Part shown: positions 10,160-39,586 of the stretch, piece after piece
How the letters are laid out: each line of letters opens with the position of its first letter
Position numbering within the stretch: the stretch's first letter is position 1
Source of the DNA: a virus
DNA length: 39,586 nt
Virus record (IMG/VR): IMGVR_UViG_3300013138_000004
Span: 1 to 39,586 of that record
Direction: 5' to 3' (one strand)
Position numbers and translations under genes: made by a program
Notes under the pieces: generated by a model
Seen by the model: only the letters and a program-made list of their open reading frames with translations
What the model was told of the DNA's origin: nothing
Database searches by the model: none

Positions 10160-11230
10160 TTATTGGTATTTTTTTATTATATCCACAAAACTATTTATTG
10201 TCATGTCAAGATTGAAAAATCTTTTGATGTGTTCAGCATTTTTAACTGCCTGTTCCTTAATCCGTTTGTAATTCCTATAAGCATAAAACATTTTATCTTC
10301 TAATTCAAAAAGGTTTGGTTCTTGCCAGTGAGGAGTTTTTTCAAATTTCATGTGAGGATAAACTGCTGGGACATTACTGAAATGATTTAGAGGAATTCCG
10401 AAAGAAGCATATTCTTTCATACCAGAAGCATTGGAAACAATTGTCGGGATTCCTCTTGCCATCATTTCTATGGGTGGAAGTCCGATTCCTTCTCCTTTAC
10501 TGGGGAAAACAAAGCAATTTGCTTGTTCTTGTAAAACTGACATTTCTAAACGATTCATATTTTTAACAATAATTTGGATATTTGGAATTCTTGGAACACT
10601 TTCAATATCTTTGGTATTATCATGGTTTCTGCCTTTAAGAATAAGTTGGACTTTTGGGTATCTACCAAAAACATTGAGAAAAGCCTTAACCACTAAATCC
10701 CAACCCTTTCTGCCATTGTCTGAAAAAGAATTGTAGTGAAGAAAAGTAAATGGATATTCGATAGTCGGAATTGAAAGATTGAAATTATCAGTTCCCTGAA
10801 TCATTGTTTCAACATTTGTTATGCCATTTTTTTTGAATAAACTCTGACAGAAGCGTGAAGGCACAATAATGACATCAAAGTTTGAACATAGTTCAGCCCA
10901 ATTCATAGGAAGTTCATCTGCTTCCCATGCAGTTATAAGGAAATATTTCTTTCCTATTTCTTTTTTAATTGGTTGAGGATAACCAAAATAGAGGACATTG
11001 GGAGAGTTATCAATGAAATTTAGTCTTGACCTGAGTAATTCTTCCACTTTTCCATATCCCCCATAAGGATAATTTTGCAGAGGGATTGACACATTGATTG
11101 TATCGTTTATTGCATCATAATGGGCTACTTCTAAACGCTTAAAGCCAATCCTTGTCAATTCCTCAACCTTTTCAACTTCAATTTCTACAATACGACCTTT
11201 AAGATTTAACATTTTTATCCATTTATTCAT
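10160..11230 (-). CDS. GT4-type glycosyltransferase
   Basis: The 356-aa GT-B enzyme is predicted to move a sugar from a nucleotide donor to an acceptor in the cytoplasm. Residues 1-32 carry a short motif shared with the giant fusion protein (W-x2-M-x-N-x2-GR-x-VE...GFK). The N-terminal Rossmann half spans about 35-155. The C-terminal half carries the retaining-GT4 E-x7-E signature (Glu247-Glu255, EGIGLPPIE) and FLHYNSF/GRKGWD typical of the donor site. It belongs with the GT and methyltransferase genes upstream. Only the acceptor is unknown. Confidence 0.85.
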   Translation of the reverse strand: MNKWIKMLNLKGRIVEIEVEKVEELTRIGFKRLEVAHYDAINDTINVSIPLQNYPYGGYGKVEELLRSRLNFIDNSPNVLYFGYPQPIKKEIGKKYFLITAWEADELPMNWAELCSNFDVIIVPSRFCQSLFKKNGITNVETMIQGTDNFNLSIPTIEYPFTFLHYNSFSDNGRKGWDLVVKAFLNVFGRYPKVQLILKGRNHDNTKDIESVPRIPNIQIIVKNMNRLEMSVLQEQANCFVFPSKGEGIGLPPIEMMARGIPTIVSNASGMKEYASFGIPLNHFSNVPAVYPHMKFEKTPHWQEPNLFELEDKMFYAYRNYKRIKEQAVKNAEHIKRFFNLDMTINSFVDIIKKYQ

Positions 11231-11663: not shown

Positions 11664-12632
11664 TTACACCTCCAATCTTTTGGCAATTTCATAAACTACA
11701 TTTACTGTAACAGCATTTCCGAGTTGGCGATAGCGTTGGGTGTCCGAAATCCCCTCAGTCCAATTATCTGGGAATCCTTGTAGTCTTTCACATTCCATAG
11801 GAGTTAATCTCCTAAATTTAGGCGTTGTTATCAATGTTCTTTGTTTATGATTATCAATTCCTTTCCAGTAATTCATGTCTAAACTTTGAGATACTTTTCG
11901 TCGTTCTGTGGGCCACCTGTTCTCGCCTTCACTGTTCCTGCTACATCTTTTGCTATTCTCAGTCCGAATCTCTGCAATCTCCTGATTGTCTGTTCTGATA
12001 GGAAATACTTTGGGTCTGGGTGTTCCTCTAAGATTTCCGACAATGAACACTCTTTCCCTATTCTGGGGGACTCCGAAATTCTTGCTGTTAAGCACTTGCC
12101 ATTGGAGGTCATACCCCAATTCTGTAAGCGTGGAGATGATGATTTTGAAAGTTCTTCCATTGTCGTGAGATAACAGTCCTTTGACATTTTCCAATATGAA
12201 CAGTCTGGGATGTTTTGCTTTGAGAATCCTTGCGACATCAAAAAAGAGTGTTCCTCTGGTGTCGTTAAATCCCCTTCTTTTTCCAGCAATACTAAATGCC
12301 TGACAGGGGAATCCTCCAACGAGTAAATCGTGGTCTGGTATGTCTTTGGCATTGACTTCTGTGATTGAGGTTGTATCAAGCCTTCTACCACTAAGGTTTG
12401 GTTCGTTCTTCCCGAACATCCTTGTCCTGTGTTTAGTGTTCCCACTTTGTTTAAGGTTATTCTTCCTTCGTGATAAGTCTTTCTCCCCGACCTGCTGTAA
12501 TGAACTAAAATTTTTGTCATATATTATTTTGCAATATTCATCAAAATCATTGGCATATACGCATTTGTGACCTAATCTATTAAGTGCTAAATCAAATCCG
12601 CCTATTCCTGCAAAAAGCGATACATATTTCAT
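11664..12632 (-). CDS. dcm-like: DNA (cytosine-5) methyltransferase, orphan
   Basis: The 322-aa enzyme transfers methyl from SAM to C5 of cytosine in DNA. Motif I FAGIGG is at 7-12, the catalytic PCQ loop at 109-111 (Cys110), ENV at 148-150, QNRERV at 190-195, RRLTPMECERLQGFP at 274-288 and the motif X block QLGNAVTVNV at 303-312. All key residues are present and the length equals small family members. A hydrophilic insert at about 45-92 precedes motif IV and the target-recognition part is short (about 205-270). No endonuclease gene is adjacent, so self-protection against host restriction is likely. A second same-strand frame is open across 642 nt of this gene. Confidence 0.93.
   Translation of the reverse strand: MKYVSLFAGIGGFDLALNRLGHKCVYANDFDEYCKIIYDKNFSSLQQVGEKDLSRRKNNLKQSGNTKHRTRMFGKNEPNLSGRRLDTTSITEVNAKDIPDHDLLVGGFPCQAFSIAGKRRGFNDTRGTLFFDVARILKAKHPRLFILENVKGLLSHDNGRTFKIIISTLTELGYDLQWQVLNSKNFGVPQNRERVFIVGNLRGTPRPKVFPIRTDNQEIAEIRTENSKRCSRNSEGENRWPTERRKVSQSLDMNYWKGIDNHKQRTLITTPKFRRLTPMECERLQGFPDNWTEGISDTQRYRQLGNAVTVNVVYEIAKRLEV
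11879..12520 (-). other. Second open frame nested in the methyltransferase gene (status uncertain)
   Basis: A 213-codon frame lies on the same strand, shifted relative to the methyltransferase, from codon 38 to the recognition region. It has no Shine-Dalgarno sequence at its ATG. It contains the stretch ECSLSEILEEHPDPKYFLSE, and near the end GTVKARTGG. These look like the KYFLS and GTLTAR blocks that other cytosine methyltransferases carry between motifs VIII and IX. This is either a genuine overprinted gene, a relic of a recombination that changed frame in the recognition domain, or a shadow kept open by composition. Confidence 0.3.
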
Positions 12633-13264
12633 TTTGCTCCTTTTCTATAAGTATTTAATTCGGATTCAACATTGGTAACATATTCCTCGCAAACTGCTTT
12701 TAGGTCAGGTTGGATTTTATTCCAGTCCTCAGTTCTTTTCTTTATTTTATCCAATGTCCTTATATGATAAACAGGAAACTCAATAGCAAAGTGATTTGCG
12801 ACTTTAGGCCAGATATGGATTGCTCTTTCAGGCGTAGGATTCCATCGGATATCTTTGCGTAAAACCATAAATTGATAATCTTTCTCCTGTCCTCCGTTAC
12901 AAACAACTCCGTCAATGTAATTGATTCTTCTTATTCTGATTCCATCAAAATCCCCCATTTGGCTAAAATCCAAACCAGCAAGATAGTTGTAAAGCGAAAT
13001 ACTTAAAATCTCATCAGCATCAAACCAGCAAAACCACGGAGTTTTAACTTGACTGGCAAGGAAATCTTTACTGTAAAAGGGAGCTTCATTGGGTCTTTCA
13101 AAAACATTTGGTGTATATTCTCTGGCAATTTTCAAAGTATCATCATCTGAAGGTTGCACTCCTAAAATCATTTCTGAGACCAAAGGTTTAACCATATCCA
13201 GAATATATCTCATGTGCTTGGCTTCATTCTTAAAGATTCCGATATAAGATAGGTTTTTATTCAT
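12629..13264 (-). CDS. GT2-like glycosyltransferase
   Basis: The ATG at 13264 overlaps the stop of the methyltransferase before it; an upstream in-frame start at 13291 would add 9 residues inside that gene. The 211-aa protein has a GT-A layout: an N-terminal IGIFKNEAKHMRYIL, and DAD at 82-84 within WFCWFDADEIL, the metal and nucleotide-sugar binding motif. It resembles the short family-2 glycosyltransferases that often pair with SAM methyltransferases. It probably adds one sugar in the same glycan pathway. The family is well supported; donor and acceptor are unknown. Confidence 0.75.
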   Translation of the reverse strand: MNKNLSYIGIFKNEAKHMRYILDMVKPLVSEMILGVQPSDDDTLKIAREYTPNVFERPNEAPFYSKDFLASQVKTPWFCWFDADEILSISLYNYLAGLDFSQMGDFDGIRIRRINYIDGVVCNGGQEKDYQFMVLRKDIRWNPTPERAIHIWPKVANHFAIEFPVYHIRTLDKIKKRTEDWNKIQPDLKAVCEEYVTNVESELNTYRKGAK

Positions 13265-13854
13265 TTTGTAAAGATTGCACAAGACATCCAATCTTTCTTG
13301 ACTACAATTTCAATGGAAGTAATTCCTAACTCTGTTTTTTGTTTAGCAATTTCATAAACTAAAGCATCCATTCCTGCTGTTCTTGAAGCATAATCAATAT
13401 TCGGACTACCTTTAACCTTAACTCCCACAATAAAATCTTCAATAATATAAGTTCCTCCAACTTTTAGATGTTGCCATAGGCGGTCAAAACAATTCTTGGT
13501 TTCTCTAGTAAAGTGAGAACCATCATCAATGATAACATCAAATCCTCCTGTTTCTTTAGCTAATTTCTCAATCGCTACATCATCCATTTGATTTATTTCT
13601 CTAGTAATGATTTTTGGGTCAGTTAATAATCTAGGTCTGGGGAGAATGTCAAAGCCATAAAGTTTGGCTTTTGGAAGCATTTTTTGGAACATTAAAAGAG
13701 AACCCCCTTCCAAAATTCCTATTTCAAGAAAAGTAATTTCTTTGTCTTTGTAATCAGTCAGAATTCTTTCATAAACTTTATTTAATCCTGAAAGATATTT
13801 GTCTGTCCCAGCCACAGTTCCTAAAATCATAGGTTTTTGATTAACTCCTTCCAT
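13261..13854 (-). CDS. SAM-dependent O-methyltransferase, MycE/cephalosporin-hydroxylase-like
   Basis: The 197-aa class I methyltransferase has GTDKY at 16-20, the SAM-binding loop EIGILEGGS at 44-52, YGFDI at 66-70 and the metal-binding IDDGSH at 109-114, followed by VGGTYIIED. This set is seen in sugar O-methyltransferases such as those acting on macrolide sugars. The start overlaps the end of the giant fusion gene by 28 bases and its stop overlaps the GT2 start, so the genes are translationally linked. It likely methylates a hydroxyl on the sugar added by its neighbours. Confidence 0.78.
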   Translation of the reverse strand: MEGVNQKPMILGTVAGTDKYLSGLNKVYERILTDYKDKEITFLEIGILEGGSLLMFQKMLPKAKLYGFDILPRPRLLTDPKIITREINQMDDVAIEKLAKETGGFDVIIDDGSHFTRETKNCFDRLWQHLKVGGTYIIEDFIVGVKVKGSPNIDYASRTAGMDALVYEIAKQKTELGITSIEIVVKKDWMSCAIFTK

Positions 13855-16800
13855 TTTTTCGCTACCTCCTCAAAAGAATATTCTTTAACCCCTTCCGCAA
13901 GAAGTTTCGGATTGTAATTTGTGTCATCAAGACTTAGTTTAACCAATTCATCAATAGTTTTCCATTTCTCTGTTCCAGTAATTTCCGCCATACCTCCACC
14001 ATCAAAAACCAGTGTCTTGCAACCAGAAGCCAATGCTTCAACTGCGACTATTCCGAAATGTTCCTGAGTGGAATTATTTTCAGAGTTATAACCAGTTGCA
14101 CTCCAAAATAATTTACTTTCCGCATAAAGTTTAGTCAATTCCTCAAAAGAAGCATCATGGATAAATTCAACATTCAAACCTCTTGCCATATTTTTTAAGA
14201 CATCAAAATACTCTTGATTTTGCACTGACCCAACTAGAACCAATTTCCAATCTTTTGGCATTTTAGAGAAAGCCTTGATAAGAATATGTTGGTTTTTATT
14301 ATTCCCTCCTTCTTGCCAGAAGAATCTTCCGACACTGATTATTTGTTTCTTCTTTTCCACATTTGGGGAAAACTTGTGTATATCTGTTGCTGGAGGAATA
14401 ACGACTGATTCAATCCCCCATTTCTGCCTGATTGCATCAGCGGAATATTTAGAAATAGCCACAACTTTATCATAGTTTTTAATTGGTTCTGTCCAATCAA
14501 ACTGAGGATAAAAGATAACTGCTATATTTTTCTTTCCGATTGGAGTTGGTAAGGAGAAATGGGAAATACAGATAAAAACATCATTTAAGTGATAATTTTT
14601 CTTGGTTAATTTTGCCAAATCTATACCAAAAGCTCTTTTTGCATCTATTTGTTTTAAGTCAACCTTAACTTCAACATTGGAATAATTGTCATCCAAAATT
14701 TTAATTACTCCAAAGGTCATATTTTCTCCTCCTCCATAAATGTGATGATGATTTCCTTCAAAAATAATATTAAGGGGAATTTTAGAGCCACCAGTGGTAG
14801 TTGTTAATTCTTCAAACTTTTTATCACAAGTTGCTCTGACTTTTAGCCAATCATCAGGGTCATTGAGGTGTTCAATGTTAGTAAAACCATTGGCTTCCAG
14901 TTTTTCTCTAATCTTTTCAAAAGTCCAACTCCAGTAATGAAAATCCCATTTAGTTCTTTGTCCTCCGTAAATCCAAGAAATTCCCAAGTGGTAATCAACC
15001 TTACCATGCAAGAGTTTTTCGCAAACTTTGAGTATATCGGGAGTTTTAATAACAACTGTTCCTCCTTTTTTCAAGACCCTCCGCCATTCCTGCAAAACTG
15101 TATCTAACTGAGTTCGGGTAAAATGTTCTATCAAATGCGAGCTATAAATTTCTTCAACACTGCTGTCTGGCAACTTCAAATCATCAGCTAGGGAAATAAT
15201 GTCCACTTCTGGGACATCCTGAATATCTACATGGACATAGCCTTGATTCGGATTGTCTCCAGAGCCAATATCAATTCTTGAACCCATTTTGCGAGTATTG
15301 ATAAAGTTTTCCCACTCTTTCCAAACCGCATCACAATTCCGATTATAATGAGTTAAAGCTTCGGTCATTTTTCCAGCAGTGGAAGCTCCGAAATGTTTCA
15401 TATTAGGTTTTTCTTTTGGCATTAGACCTTTGTAGCCTAAGTTTCTGATTCGGCAACAATGGTCAACATCCTCAATGCACCATAAATCTTTATCAATTAA
15501 AAGTCCTATCTTTTTAGTTAATCTTCTGGGGAAAACAAAGATAGAATGAGCAACCCATTCAATTTCTGTTCCGTGAGTAAATTGTTTGCCCATGAAATTC
15601 TTTTCTTCTTTATTTATCCACCAGCCATCAGTTCCAGTAAAGCCTACTGTCTGGTCTTTGAAAACTGCCAGAAGGTCATCTAACCACCCTGCTCCTGCTT
15701 GCGTATCATTATCTAGGAAACAAATATATTCTCCCCAAGCTATCATTATTCCGATGTTTTTGGCTTTTGGCACGCCTAGATTTTCAGAAAGATGCACTGT
15801 TCTTATGTCTGACTGTTCATCCAGCCATTTTTCAATACCATCATTGGAGTTATTGTCTATGGCAATAAGTTCGTAATCTTTGGTATTCTTCCTTACTGCT
15901 TCAATGGCGGTAATGGTCATTTCTTTATTATTGAAAATTGGCATGATAATTGAAGTTCTAGGTCTTGGTTCGGTTAATCGTTTGAAAATAAGAATGGATT
16001 GTTTTTTTTTGCCATCATCCAACCAATAGCGGTAAATAGTTAAATCAAATCCTCTAAAAATCTGCTGATATTGAAGGTCTGTTAAAAGTCTTTCATTTCC
16101 AAAATCCAATTTACCATAATCATTATTAGGGACAGAATGAATAACCACTGGAGCATTTTTAAGTTCATTGGTAACTAAAGCCACCATTTGTTCGTTGGAG
16201 AAATGTTCCAACATTCCCTGAGAAAAAATAACATCAGCTTTAAGGTTATTTTTGAAAGAATCTCCATAGGAGACTTTTAGATTAGGAGCAAGGGTCGCCA
16301 TATTTTTCTTTGCCATTTCTACAATCTGTTTATCGAAATCAACTGCGGTTACTTTGATATTCTCATCCCAAGAAAGAAATCCTGATAGAGAAGCTGTTCC
16401 GCAACCATCCTCAATTACTGTCTTGGGGTTGAAGGCTTTAATGAATCTAAAAATATCTCCCTGTGCAGTTCCCCAAATTCTCATGGTTTCCTTATCTACT
16501 TTGGTTTTTTCATAGAATTCTCCCCATTTTCTTTCCTTAGCGACTGGGGTCTTGATATTGTTGACCCTGAATTGAGGAAGATTGGATTCGACAATATCCA
16601 TCCACATCTTTCTGACCTGACTATCCCAATCCCATTCTCTCCGTGTCCAATCTGAGGCTTTTTCTCCTATGAGTTTTGCTTTTTCCCTATTCTCATAAAC
16701 ATACCTCATTTGTTTGACCAAATCAGCAACCAATGGGCTTCTCCAATCGCCAATGCCTTTACCATCCTGATATTCTTCTGGATAATGCCATTTTTCAGCT

Positions 16801-17771
16801 TTCCTTAATTCTCCGCTTTCAACTGGAAAGTTATATCTGCCATTAACTAAATCTGCCATGCCTGACCAGTTATGGATAATTGTCGGCAAACCTGTGGACA
16901 TCGCCTCTAAAGCAGGGAGACAAAATCCTTCAGCTCTGGAAGAAACAACATAGCAATTAGCCTTTTCCAATAAGTTCAGGTATTTTTCGTAAGGATAAGA
17001 TTCTTCAATTACTTCTATTCTGGGGTCATTGGGAATTTCTATTTTTCCCCATTTCATTTCATGGTTACTTTTAATTATTAGTTTGACATCTTTTTCTTTT
17101 GGAAAGGTTTCTTCAAAAGCCTCAATTAAAAGGTCAGTTCCTTTTCTTAAAGATAAATCCCCAGCAGTTAAGAAAACAAAGTCGCCTTCCCAATTCCTTT
17201 CCATTTTGGGGAATCTGTCGCTTCTGACACCATGATGAATTGTCAACATTGGTTTATTTATGCCAGATTCCCTAAAGACATTTTGCACAAAATTTGTTGA
17301 GGGATAGACTTTATCAATATACTGATTTATATTTTTAACCCAAATATCTGGAGCAATCGTGGTGTCCCAGTCTATATGCAAATAGTTTTTAACTGACAAA
17401 TCTCTGGGAAGAATCTTGGGTACTGCATAATAAAGGGTAATCTTGGCTTTCGTGTATTTATCGGATAATTTTATCAATTCTAAAGTTCTGGGTTGTAATC
17501 CTTCTTCTTGAACATAGTCTGGTAAGACCTTAATTTTAAGCCCTAGTTTATCCAAGGAGAGTAGAACTTCTTCCCCTACCCTTCCCATGCCATTGGAAGC
17601 CCAAAGAAGCGTAACGAGGTTTAAGTCGGCTCTATTATTATTTCCAACAAACGAGGAATCTGATAAAGCAGAACATTCCTTGAATCCTTTTTTTAATAAT
17701 TCAGGTATCAGAGTTTCGTCAACTTCGACTTGTCTGCCACCTGGATTTATCATCCAAACCCATTTTTTCAT
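13827..17771 (-). CDS. Giant glycan-assembly protein: GT4 - methyltransferase - GT2 - methyltransferase - GT4
   Basis: A 1314-aa, five-domain fusion. Residues 1-32 hold the N-terminal motif shared with the GT4 at 10160-11230. Residues 50-395 are a GT4-type GT-B domain (AEGFCLPALEA at 280-290, with GVRSDRF before it). Residues 410-600 are a SAM methyltransferase (VIEDGCGTA at 452-460, FSQGMLEHF). Residues 604-825 are a GT2 domain (SIIMPIFNN at 607-615, DND at 687-689). Residues 828-980 are a second methyltransferase (DIGSGDNPNQGYVHVDI at 834-850, SSHLIEHF). Residues 1000-1314 are a second GT4 (IISVGRFFWQEGGNNKN, EHFGIVAVEALASG at 1237-1250). There is no signal peptide or transmembrane helix, so it should be cytoplasmic. 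The frame is uninterrupted and every domain keeps its motif. The order suggests stepwise building and methylation of one oligosaccharide. The ATG follows a 15-bp hairpin rather than a Shine-Dalgarno sequence. Confidence 0.88.
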   Translation of the reverse strand: MKKWVWMINPGGRQVEVDETLIPELLKKGFKECSALSDSSFVGNNNRADLNLVTLLWASNGMGRVGEEVLLSLDKLGLKIKVLPDYVQEEGLQPRTLELIKLSDKYTKAKITLYYAVPKILPRDLSVKNYLHIDWDTTIAPDIWVKNINQYIDKVYPSTNFVQNVFRESGINKPMLTIHHGVRSDRFPKMERNWEGDFVFLTAGDLSLRKGTDLLIEAFEETFPKEKDVKLIIKSNHEMKWGKIEIPNDPRIEVIEESYPYEKYLNLLEKANCYVVSSRAEGFCLPALEAMSTGLPTIIHNWSGMADLVNGRYNFPVESGELRKAEKWHYPEEYQDGKGIGDWRSPLVADLVKQMRYVYENREKAKLIGEKASDWTRREWDWDSQVRKMWMDIVESNLPQFRVNNIKTPVAKERKWGEFYEKTKVDKETMRIWGTAQGDIFRFIKAFNPKTVIEDGCGTASLSGFLSWDENIKVTAVDFDKQIVEMAKKNMATLAPNLKVSYGDSFKNNLKADVIFSQGMLEHFSNEQMVALVTNELKNAPVVIHSVPNNDYGKLDFGNERLLTDLQYQQIFRGFDLTIYRYWLDDGKKKQSILIFKRLTEPRPRTSIIMPIFNNKEMTITAIEAVRKNTKDYELIAIDNNSNDGIEKWLDEQSDIRTVHLSENLGVPKAKNIGIMIAWGEYICFLDNDTQAGAGWLDDLLAVFKDQTVGFTGTDGWWINKEEKNFMGKQFTHGTEIEWVAHSIFVFPRRLTKKIGLLIDKDLWCIEDVDHCCRIRNLGYKGLMPKEKPNMKHFGASTAGKMTEALTHYNRNCDAVWKEWENFINTRKMGSRIDIGSGDNPNQGYVHVDIQDVPEVDIISLADDLKLPDSSVEEIYSSHLIEHFTRTQLDTVLQEWRRVLKKGGTVVIKTPDILKVCEKLLHGKVDYHLGISWIYGGQRTKWDFHYWSWTFEKIREKLEANGFTNIEHLNDPDDWLKVRATCDKKFEELTTTTGGSKIPLNIIFEGNHHHIYGGGENMTFGVIKILDDNYSNVEVKVDLKQIDAKRAFGIDLAKLTKKNYHLNDVFICISHFSLPTPIGKKNIAVIFYPQFDWTEPIKNYDKVVAISKYSADAIRQKWGIESVVIPPATDIHKFSPNVEKKKQIISVGRFFWQEGGNNKNQHILIKAFSKMPKDWKLVLVGSVQNQEYFDVLKNMARGLNVEFIHDASFEELTKLYAESKLFWSATGYNSENNSTQEHFGIVAVEALASGCKTLVFDGGGMAEITGTEKWKTIDELVKLSLDDTNYNPKLLAEGVKEYSFEEVAKKWKELIKNL

Positions 17772-17773
17772 AG

Positions 17774-17879
17774 TTTGATTCGGTAGGCATTTCGTTGGAG
17801 TAAAAGGAGTTTAGAAGTAAGAGTTTGGAACTATCCTTCGGTGCAAACTCCCTAAATCCTGATAGCCTACCGAATCAAA
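17774..17879 (-). ncRNA. Structured leader of the giant glycosyltransferase gene (element A)
   Basis: A perfect 15-bp inverted repeat closes the element: TTTGATTCGGTAGGC at 17774-17788 and its complement at 17865-17879. A second stem pairs 17821-17827 (GAGTTTG) with 17844-17850, with CCTTCGG at 17835-17841 in its loop. The element fills the gap between the zinc-ribbon gene and the giant gene, and the 3' arm ends 2 nt before the ATG, so the ribosome site would be sealed by the stem. It could be a cis-regulatory RNA, or a small inverted-repeat mobile element. Confidence 0.55.
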
Positions 17880-17882
17880 ATA

Positions 17883-18071
17883 TCAAGCATATCGTCTTTG
17901 GTATTCTCCCCTATAACATTTATTGCAAATTCTTATGACAATATCTTTTATCCTAACCCAATTTTCTTCTTTTTTCTTGCTACAAAGTTTTGAGCAGGAC
18001 TGACAATAAAAATACGGAGTATCATCCTCATCTTCAAAAAATAGTTTTGGGCGACCCCTCGGCATACTCAT
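17883..18071 (-). CDS. Small zinc-finger protein
   Basis: The 62-aa protein has C-x2-C-x3-C (CQSCSKLC at 23-30) and ICNKC near residues 48-52, so four or more cysteines can bind zinc. It starts with MSMPRGRPKL; the PRGRPK stretch resembles an AT-hook, which binds the minor groove of AT-rich DNA. Its start overlaps the stop of the nuclease-like gene. A DNA-binding regulator or HNH-related fragment is possible, but no catalytic HNH residues are visible. Confidence 0.55.
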   Translation of the reverse strand: MSMPRGRPKLFFEDEDDTPYFYCQSCSKLCSKKKEENWVRIKDIVIRICNKCYRGEYQRRYA

Positions 18072-26705: not shown

Positions 26706-27713
26706 TTAAATCTTGAACCACTTGTGCCTAGACTTTATTTTTTCTATTTTTTCAGTTTTGACATTTCCGTTTTCATCAAACCATCTTCTGAACCAGTCTG
26801 TTTTTTTCTCGGCTTCTGTAAAATTGATTGATAAATCCTCTTGCTTTGTTTGCTCTGTTGGCTCTGGCAATTCTGAGCCTTCTGTTGGCATATCGTCATC
26901 AATAACTTGGGCTTCGTTTTTCAATTTCCAAATATCGCCTTGTTTTATCCAGTTGTCCTGATTATAATAATCGTCATACCATCCATAGTTATATCCATAA
27001 GAGTAAGATTTTGGCGTGATATTTTCTCTGGTATATTCGATTTTGTTGTTTTTCCATGTAAGCGTGTATATTTTTGTTCCCTCGGTTTCAATAATATTGC
27101 CATTGAGCTTTGCTCTTTTAACTGCAATTTCCAAATGTTCTTTGACGCTGGAAAATAAAACCCCCCGATTGTCTGGTAAAAAACAAAAGCTACAAGGTGC
27201 GTTATTCTTGGCAATCCGTAAAGTATAAATATCATCAAGTCTAAAATATGGTACCGTGAACCATCCTTGTAGTTTTTTCTCAAAAACTGTTTTGTCCTTG
27301 CAAGTATTCAAGAGATAGCCGATAATTTGACTGTCAACCTGGTAATTGGTCTTATATTTCGTCTGTAATTCGTCAAAATTGTCAATAATTCCATTGTGAG
27401 CAAAAACATAACCGCCAACTTGGTATGGGTGGGCGTTTTCGTCTGATATTATGCCAGTTGTAGCAGCTCGGCTGTGTCCGATTGCTACAATGTAATCGTT
27501 ATAGCGTTGTCTGTTAAAAATTTGTCTCGTGGTTTCCTTAGCCATAAACTTGGTGGCATTGACCGCTTTTTTATATAATTCAATTCCGCCTTTGGAAGCC
27601 ACTACAATACCAGCACTATCTTGACCTCTGACCTCGTTGGCTATTGCCAAAAGTCTCAATGCCGTTGTTGTTTTCTTGTTTGGTTTTCCGATGTATCCGT
27701 ATAATCCGCACAT
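26706..27713 (-). CDS. Standalone class II glutamine amidotransferase
   Basis: The 335-aa protein begins MCGLYGYIG, so Cys2 is exposed as the N-terminal nucleophile after Met removal. It carries RGQDSAG (29-35), HSRAATTG (80-87), NAHPYQV, the HNG of FAHNGIIDN (106-112) and Asp127, which are the glutamine-binding and oxyanion residues of the GlmS/PurF-type domain. The synthase half (for example the SIS domains of GlmS) is absent; residues about 230-335 are Tyr/Trp-rich and then acidic and unlike known synthases. It would hydrolyse glutamine and pass ammonia to an unknown partner, possibly amino-sugar or nucleotide modification. Confidence 0.85.
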   Translation of the reverse strand: MCGLYGYIGKPNKKTTTALRLLAIANEVRGQDSAGIVVASKGGIELYKKAVNATKFMAKETTRQIFNRQRYNDYIVAIGHSRAATTGIISDENAHPYQVGGYVFAHNGIIDNFDELQTKYKTNYQVDSQIIGYLLNTCKDKTVFEKKLQGWFTVPYFRLDDIYTLRIAKNNAPCSFCFLPDNRGVLFSSVKEHLEIAVKRAKLNGNIIETEGTKIYTLTWKNNKIEYTRENITPKSYSYGYNYGWYDDYYNQDNWIKQGDIWKLKNEAQVIDDDMPTEGSELPEPTEQTKQEDLSINFTEAEKKTDWFRRWFDENGNVKTEKIEKIKSRHKWFKI

Positions 27714-27779: not shown

Positions 27780-27965
27780 TCAAATACTACTGTCAAAAGC
27801 TCTTAGGTGTCTCGTCTCCTCCGCTTTATAGATAACAATGTCCGAAAATGCAAACTTGAAGATATAAAACAATGTAGTTAATAGGAAAATTGCGAGGATT
27901 GCCGTTAAGCTCCAGTTGATTTTGACCTTGTTGTTGTAATTGCTGTAGTCGTGTGTATATTGCAT
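27780..27965 (-). CDS. Small single-pass membrane protein
   Basis: The 61-aa protein has a polar N-terminus (MQYTHDYSNYNNKVKINW), one hydrophobic helix at about 19-40 (LTAILAIFLLTTLFYIFKF) and a charged tail. It is the first gene of the leftward operon that includes the amidotransferase. It is early expressed; the role is unknown. Confidence 0.55.
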   Translation of the reverse strand: MQYTHDYSNYNNKVKINWSLTAILAIFLLTTLFYIFKFAFSDIVIYKAEETRHLRAFDSSI

Positions 27966-27988
27966 AGTTCCAAACTCTTACTACTAGG

Positions 27989-39463: not shown

Positions 39464-39586
39464 GTAGGGGAGTAAAACCTAATCAGGCTAATAAGAGATT
39501 TCCCAAGAGTGTGTTTAATTTTGATAGTTGACAAAAAATAATTAGTTGTTGGAAAATAATAACCATGATAGGAATAACGGAAAAAA
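39464..39586. repeat. Terminal direct repeat, right copy
   Basis: This copy is identical to bases 1-123. It contains the promoter at 65-94 and the first 22 bases of the gene at 102 again, so no additional gene is present here. Confidence 0.93.

Follow-up and report, generated by a model that had tools for sequence, protein, structure and literature searches.

A five-domain glycosyltransferase-methyltransferase fusion protein in a small uncultured phage, a candidate builder of methylated glycans

The fusion gene and its surroundings

The window (the whole stretch of phage DNA analyzed, 39,586 bases) carries a five-domain gene at 13827-17771 on the minus strand (start 17771, end 13827), encoding 1314 aa without an internal stop and taking up 3945/39586 bases, or 10.0%, of the phage sequence. 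After an N-terminal module, the domains follow in the order GT4 glycosyltransferase (GT), class I methyltransferase (MT), GT2, class I methyltransferase, and GT4 (Table 1). None of 60 first-order Markov simulations of the window gave a stop-free run longer than 236 codons, which excludes a chance open reading frame (ORF), and a frameshift or assembly artifact was ruled out by the zero internal stops together with a homolog of identical domain order. Three GT and 2 MT regions passed the curated Pfam cutoffs, including Glycos_transf_1 (PF00534) in 2 stretches (E 6.5e-37), Glycos_transf_2 (PF00535; E 4.2e-21), Methyltransf_25 (E 4.2e-15), and Methyltransf_11 (E 4.9e-14), and a phage glycosyltransferase family from PHROGs, phrog_2170, covered residues 60-396 (E 7.6e-49). 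The length of 1314 residues, the share of about 10% of the genome, and the content of 3 GT and 2 MT domains had all been reported in the first-pass annotation, which named no strand, and all were confirmed.

An exact 123-bp end repeat (1-123 = 39464-39586) makes it very likely that the 39,586-base genome is complete, so its earlier description as a 39-kb phage holds. Genes for terminase (at 29.6 kb), portal, and the capsid protein (at 38.5 kb) lie on the plus strand, and this run continues round the ends past the distal tail protein gene (5.9 kb) to additional genes, as far as about 8.9 kb, while replication and other genes occupy the minus strand from 9.5 to 28 kb. The glycan cassette closes the minus-strand run on the side that faces the tail genes. 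Operon-like overlaps of 4 to 28 nt occur between several genes; the separate class I methyltransferase gene and the end of the fusion gene share 28 nt, and the GT2-like ORF, listed from a TTG at 13291, more likely starts at the ATG at 13264, with a 4-nt overlap with the preceding gene. The C5 cytosine DNA methyltransferase of the cassette probably protects phage DNA, and a role in glycan synthesis is not clear for it.

Outside the cassette, the minus strand also encodes a class II glutamine amidotransferase domain (26706-27713) that is similar to the N-terminal half of GlmS, lacks the sugar-isomerase half, and is possibly linked to amino-sugar supply. A scan of genomes with the major capsid protein (MCP), in search of a host, returned only 3 distant MAG contigs from 2 unrelated groups, which are possibly mis-binned.

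Table 1. Features of the glycan cassette, the fusion protein, and the upstream region, with further sites of the N-terminal module
Feature	Position (residues of the fusion protein where given)	Strand	Basis and remarks
Separate GT4, paralog of GT4-N	10160..11230	-	Pfam, PHROGs; same N-terminal module
C5 cytosine DNA methyltransferase	11664..12632	-	Pfam E 4e-89; within cassette
GT2-like glycosyltransferase	12629..13291	-	43% identity to same-place gene of G007 phage
Separate class I methyltransferase (Methyltransf_24)	13261..13854	-	Pfam, phrog_21658
GT4-C domain	13830..14765 (1003-1314)	-	Pfam, best stretch 1131-1269; EX7E at 1237-1245
MT2 domain	14817..15284 (830-985)	-	Pfam; motif I DIGSGD; phrog_6636, phrog_5399
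GT2 domain	15294..15962 (604-826)	-	Pfam; predicted GT-A fold; DND 687-689, ED 767-768
MT1 domain	15972..16481 (431-600)	-	Pfam; motif I EDGCGTA; moderate model confidence
GT4-N domain	16572..17636 (46-400)	-	Pfam; GT-B fold model; EX7E at 281-289
N-terminal module NPxGRxVEVD..ELLKKGF	17670..17771 (1-34)	-	HMM search of ORFs
Long hairpin directly upstream of fusion start codon	17767..17886; arms 17767-17788, 17865-17886	-	
Further module site	L114:6693-6992		
Further module site	L112 near 14524	-	

Signature motifs were present in all 5 domains. The EX7E motif was found in both GT4 domains (E281-E289 and E1237-E1245), and the GT2 domain had a DxD motif (D687-N-D689) and an acidic pair (E767-D768) within WCIEDVD at 764-770. 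The SAM-binding motif I was recognized in MT1 (E454-D-G-C-G-T-A) and MT2 (D834-I-G-S-G-D), each followed by an acidic strand end (D478 and D849, respectively) that is kept in the homolog from a second phage, G007. The motifs had been described as intact; this stood except in MT1, where the third glycine of motif I is alanine in this phage and glycine in the G007 homolog.

Structure prediction per domain, which had been suggested as a check, gave clear folds for GT4-N and GT2, moderate confidence for MT1 and MT2, and a confident model of the C-terminal half only for GT4-C. The GT4-N model adopts a GT-B fold, aligning with HepE over 309 residues (VIA Z 28.1, rmsd 2.9), and its best Foldseek match was the chlorella-virus glycosyltransferase 3oy2. 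The GT2 model adopts a GT-A fold, with VIA Z of 20-21 to 6p61, TarP, and WrtF; in the fold search with the second half of the protein this domain dominates, and the folds of MT2 and GT4-C were hardly probed. Both terminal GT domains are assigned to GT4, with a predicted GT-B fold (partly modeled in GT4-C) and EX7E, and the middle domain to GT2, with a predicted GT-A fold, DxD, and the acidic catalytic motif. Judged by motif I and the acidic strand end, MT1 and MT2 are predicted class I SAM-dependent methyltransferases. No membrane segment was identified in the fusion protein (top 19-residue Kyte-Doolittle mean, 1.33), so it should be soluble.

The N-terminal module of about 34 aa also opens the paralogous GT4 of the cassette (11129-11230, minus strand) and a GT4 of another phage, and in 2 related genomes it is found in small stand-alone ORFs (about 70 and 99 aa). 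Elsewhere, the HMM search, which covered 17,782 ORFs from all loci compared, found no confident occurrence. A docking or recruitment role for this module is a guess. The hairpin upstream of the fusion gene folds at -44.3 kcal/mol (z -6.5), had zero matches in Rfam, and is absent at the G007 homolog. It holds a 23-nt element (17812-17834) with a second copy, differing at 1 position, on the other strand at 27964-27986; the sole IMG/VR contig found with this element has a terminase identical to that of this phage. The hairpin is possibly a control element for expression of the fusion gene, and promoter and terminator scans gave results no better than shuffles.

Conservation and occurrence of fused transferases

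We identified a full-length five-domain homolog of 1348 aa with 47-50% identity in IMGVR_UViG_3300002171_000004 (G007), another phage of this lineage, whose genome of 38,853 b has an 84-bp end repeat. It has the same domain order, the same catalytic residues, and the same genome slot. Since the capsid proteins of the 2 phages are 58% identical and the terminases 54%, the fusion has diverged about equally to or slightly more than the core genes. Comparison with this homolog gave pN/pS of 0.38-0.64 across the 5 domains, with synonymous sites near saturation, and all 5 domains are under purifying selection. A strong benefit of the gene had been expected from its size in a gene-dense genome, and the conserved full-length homolog and the selection on every domain bear this out. 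Downstream in G007, GT2-like and GT4 genes follow in the same order as in this phage, with a polysaccharide pyruvyl transferase replacing the separate methyltransferase. The G007 phage also encodes a complete-looking S-adenosylmethionine synthetase (L109:6939-7862), which could supply SAM to methyltransferases.

In G003 and G006, two other relatives whose terminases are 57-63% identical, no fusion is present and the GT and MT genes are separate, close to the tail genes; given this and its variable content, the cassette is a changeable accessory locus. Homologous domains were found as separate genes in G003, G006, G009, G012, G013, and G026, so fusion is not required. Such separate genes, and the poor conservation of the inter-domain stretches (29-35% identity), would agree with independent enzymes fused by chance, each with its own substrate and with no assembly line. 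That reading is improbable, since the five-domain order is kept in 2 phages at about 49% identity and the proven GT-MT fusions A064R and WsaE each act on one glycan. Even less probable, to the point of being remote, is a cassette that decorates phage DNA by placing sugar on modified bases. The C5 cytosine DNA methyltransferase within the cassette is in its favor, whereas the GT domains belong to the GT4 and GT2 types, which act in protein and polysaccharide pathways, no gene for base hydroxylation or hydroxymethylation was recognized in the ORFs scanned, and G007 has the fusion without a detectable homolog of the DNA methyltransferase.

Scanning IMG/VR and GTDB genomes for the whole protein, with one sequence as the query, yielded no match, which is weak evidence of absence, as the same scan also missed the G007 homolog; this surfaced via its capsid gene and later via a two-member alignment. 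Searches with tblastn of 50,697 phage and 72,556 plasmid records returned partial matches only, none covering 80% of the query, with coverage among the matches listed of at most 28% and 29%, respectively. The five-domain order was thus found in no record of the phage or plasmid collections and in none besides G007 in IMG/VR, where the pattern scans are insensitive, so rarity of the architecture is not established.

Fusions of 2-4 GT or GT/MT domains were identified in uncultured phages elsewhere. The multi-domain fusions of L147, L158, L163, L165, L170, L172, and L180 are 842-1055 aa long and have 3 or 4 GT or GT and MT domains per ORF, several of them in structural-gene operons. Domain orders included GT4-GT2-GT2-MT, GT4-GT2-GT4, GT4-GT4-GT2, and GT4-GT2-GT2. 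In contrast to the five-domain protein, these fusions have at most 1 fused methyltransferase and other domain orders, and they are not orthologous to it. In 4 records, such fusions are found behind the capsid gene and share its strand, and a single GT gene or cassette is so placed in 2 more. In L011, a phage of the same lineage with an MCP 52% identical to that of the window, the capsid gene is followed, after 16 bp and on its strand, by a GT4 of the same family. Further, in L148 the major head protein and a structural/tail protein flank a TPR-GT2-GT4 protein, an MT2 homolog, and a GT2, and in L163 a virion structural protein and a head-tail adaptor flank a GT4-GT4-GT2 fusion and a methyltransferase. 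Reading the sequences by eye, we found GT4-first long ORFs directly after an L163-like structural gene in L170, L171, and L172, with the leading GT4 fused to 2 GT2 domains in L170 and L172.

Several other features were observed at these loci. GT4-GT2-GT4 fusions lie behind very long structural-looking ORFs in L158 (3430-8886) and L165 (5977-11489), followed by a sugar-nucleotidyltransferase-like gene (phrog_3980) and, as read by eye, a tubulin/FtsZ-like gene. Radical-SAM-like genes, likewise recognized by eye, adjoin the GT/MT fusion cassette of the head operon in L163 (4693-5700) and L172 (9593-11209), and the one in L172 continues into head-tail-adaptor-like sequence. A phage glycosyltransferase gene in L194 (2427-4868) is apparently split by an intein with a LAGLIDADG domain. 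A 739-aa protein consisting mostly of collagen-like SGYSG repeats (L147:1222-3441) lies near the four-domain GT4-GT2-GT2-MT fusion and is possibly a glycosylated fiber.

Predicted role of the fusion protein

We propose that the fusion protein would be a soluble cytoplasmic glycan-building enzyme with multiple active sites. Its 3 GT domains would probably add 3 sugars from host nucleotide sugars, its 2 MT domains would probably O-methylate 2 sugars or cap the chain, and it would work with the separate GT4, GT2-like, and methyltransferase proteins of the cassette. The likeliest acceptor would be a virion protein, of capsid or tail, and the particle would leave the cell carrying a methylated oligosaccharide, with chloroviruses and some mycobacteriophages as the model for such a virion. 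We infer the donors, linkages, methylation sites, order of action, and acceptor, as well as a benefit of fusion in the form of fixed stoichiometry or channeling.

The GT genes and fusions in the capsid operons of other phages make action on the virion the simplest reading, and with somewhat better than even confidence we take the protein to be a methylated-glycan enzyme that would act on a virion protein. As the first-pass annotation put forward, and as the fusion suggests, the protein may assemble a defined oligosaccharide without diffusible intermediates. Among the targets listed in that annotation, virion glycosylation is best supported, though indirectly, by capsid-operon genes in relatives and in other phages; capsular mimicry gained no specific support, and modification of host glycans is a live rival. 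Several findings count against a virion target: the structural genes are on the plus strand but the cassette is on the minus strand, where it closes an early-type run; none of the phages with capsid-linked fusions (L148, L163, and L170-L172) is a close relative or carries an orthologous fusion; only 1 further phage with the five-domain protein was found; and motif I of MT1 deviates by one glycine.

The early-type strand, and the patchy, variable presence of the cassette between related phages, would agree instead with an enzyme that modifies or caps host surface polysaccharide, acting on lipid-linked intermediates at the inner membrane face and thereby blocking the adsorption of competing phages. 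Such a change of the host surface has been proposed for the sugar-enzyme clusters of jumbo cyanophages (PMC7824862), methyl capping can terminate a polymer, as in WsaE (PMC2943079), and the GT2 domain is weakly similar to GtrB-type phage proteins. We nevertheless consider action on host polysaccharide rather unlikely, as the protein is without a membrane segment, related GT genes and fusions of other phages sit in capsid operons, and no flippase, polymerase, phosphoglycosyltransferase, or polysaccharide exporter was recognized in the Pfam-scanned ORFs, a set short of every small ORF.

For an enzyme acting on the virion, a more specific arrangement is conceivable and is put forward tentatively: a five-site assembly line that would furnish a capsid or tail protein of the phage itself with a complete trisaccharide carrying 2 methyl groups, with the N-terminal module of about 34 aa as a shared docking tag. 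Such a multi-active-site glycan synthase would be larger than those known from viruses. Phage virion glycosylation is a little explored field. A virion-directed role would mean that small uncultured phages produce methylated glycans of an elaborate kind, using polyfunctional enzymes on a par with those of giant algal viruses, and that glycan cassettes vary between related phages. A single purified protein would offer a testable five-step pathway.

Comparison with known systems

Two further roles were considered for parts of the protein. The GtrB-type family phrog_841 matches only GT2 residues 606-706, and GtrB-type O-antigen conversion was set aside with no membrane segment in the protein and no GtrA flippase recognized among the ORFs scanned. 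For a defense role, PADLOC gave only a partial mad2 match in the MT1 region (residues 433-528). The GT4-conflict model PF20706 passed its cutoff (48 vs 26 bits), yet general GT4 models outscore it, and no defense gene was recognized nearby.

A064R of PBCV-1, a 638-aa protein of the order GT-GT-MT, synthesizes the terminal part of the capsid glycan and methylates it, and it is described in a review as among the few enzymes with 3 transferase domains (PMC7826918, PMC9614988). Like A064R, the phage protein is a viral, soluble single polypeptide with at least 2 GT domains and an MT domain, and A111/114R of PBCV-1 similarly has several GT domains in one viral polypeptide. Unlike A064R, whose virus infects a eukaryotic alga, it has 5 domains instead of 3; as domain families and order differ, we did not file it as an A064R-like member. 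WsaE of Geobacillus stearothermophilus is a soluble, trifunctional enzyme of the order MT-GT-GT, in which methylation caps the chain (PMC2943079). In contrast to the phage protein, WsaE is cellular, has a different domain order, and works together with an ABC transporter on a lipid-linked S-layer glycan; no WsaE-type exporter or initiating enzyme was recognized among the window ORFs scanned, which do not comprise all small ORFs, and the host could supply them. In the mycobacteriophages Che8 and Rita, which encode glycosyltransferases, glycans are reported to be covalently attached to the major capsid protein (cited in PMC11256854); unlike the fusion, these glycosyltransferases are discussed there as separate enzymes.

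The principle is thus already known from A064R, WsaE, and the capsid glycans of Che8 and Rita. What is new is the length and order of the protein, with 5 domains including 2 methyltransferases, its occurrence in small phages, where it is conserved, and the recurrence of three- or four-domain GT/MT fusions across several uncultured phage groups. The phage example joins the few enzymes with 3 or more transferase domains per chain, and the five-domain protein is the largest fused enzyme of the A064R/WsaE kind in this analysis.
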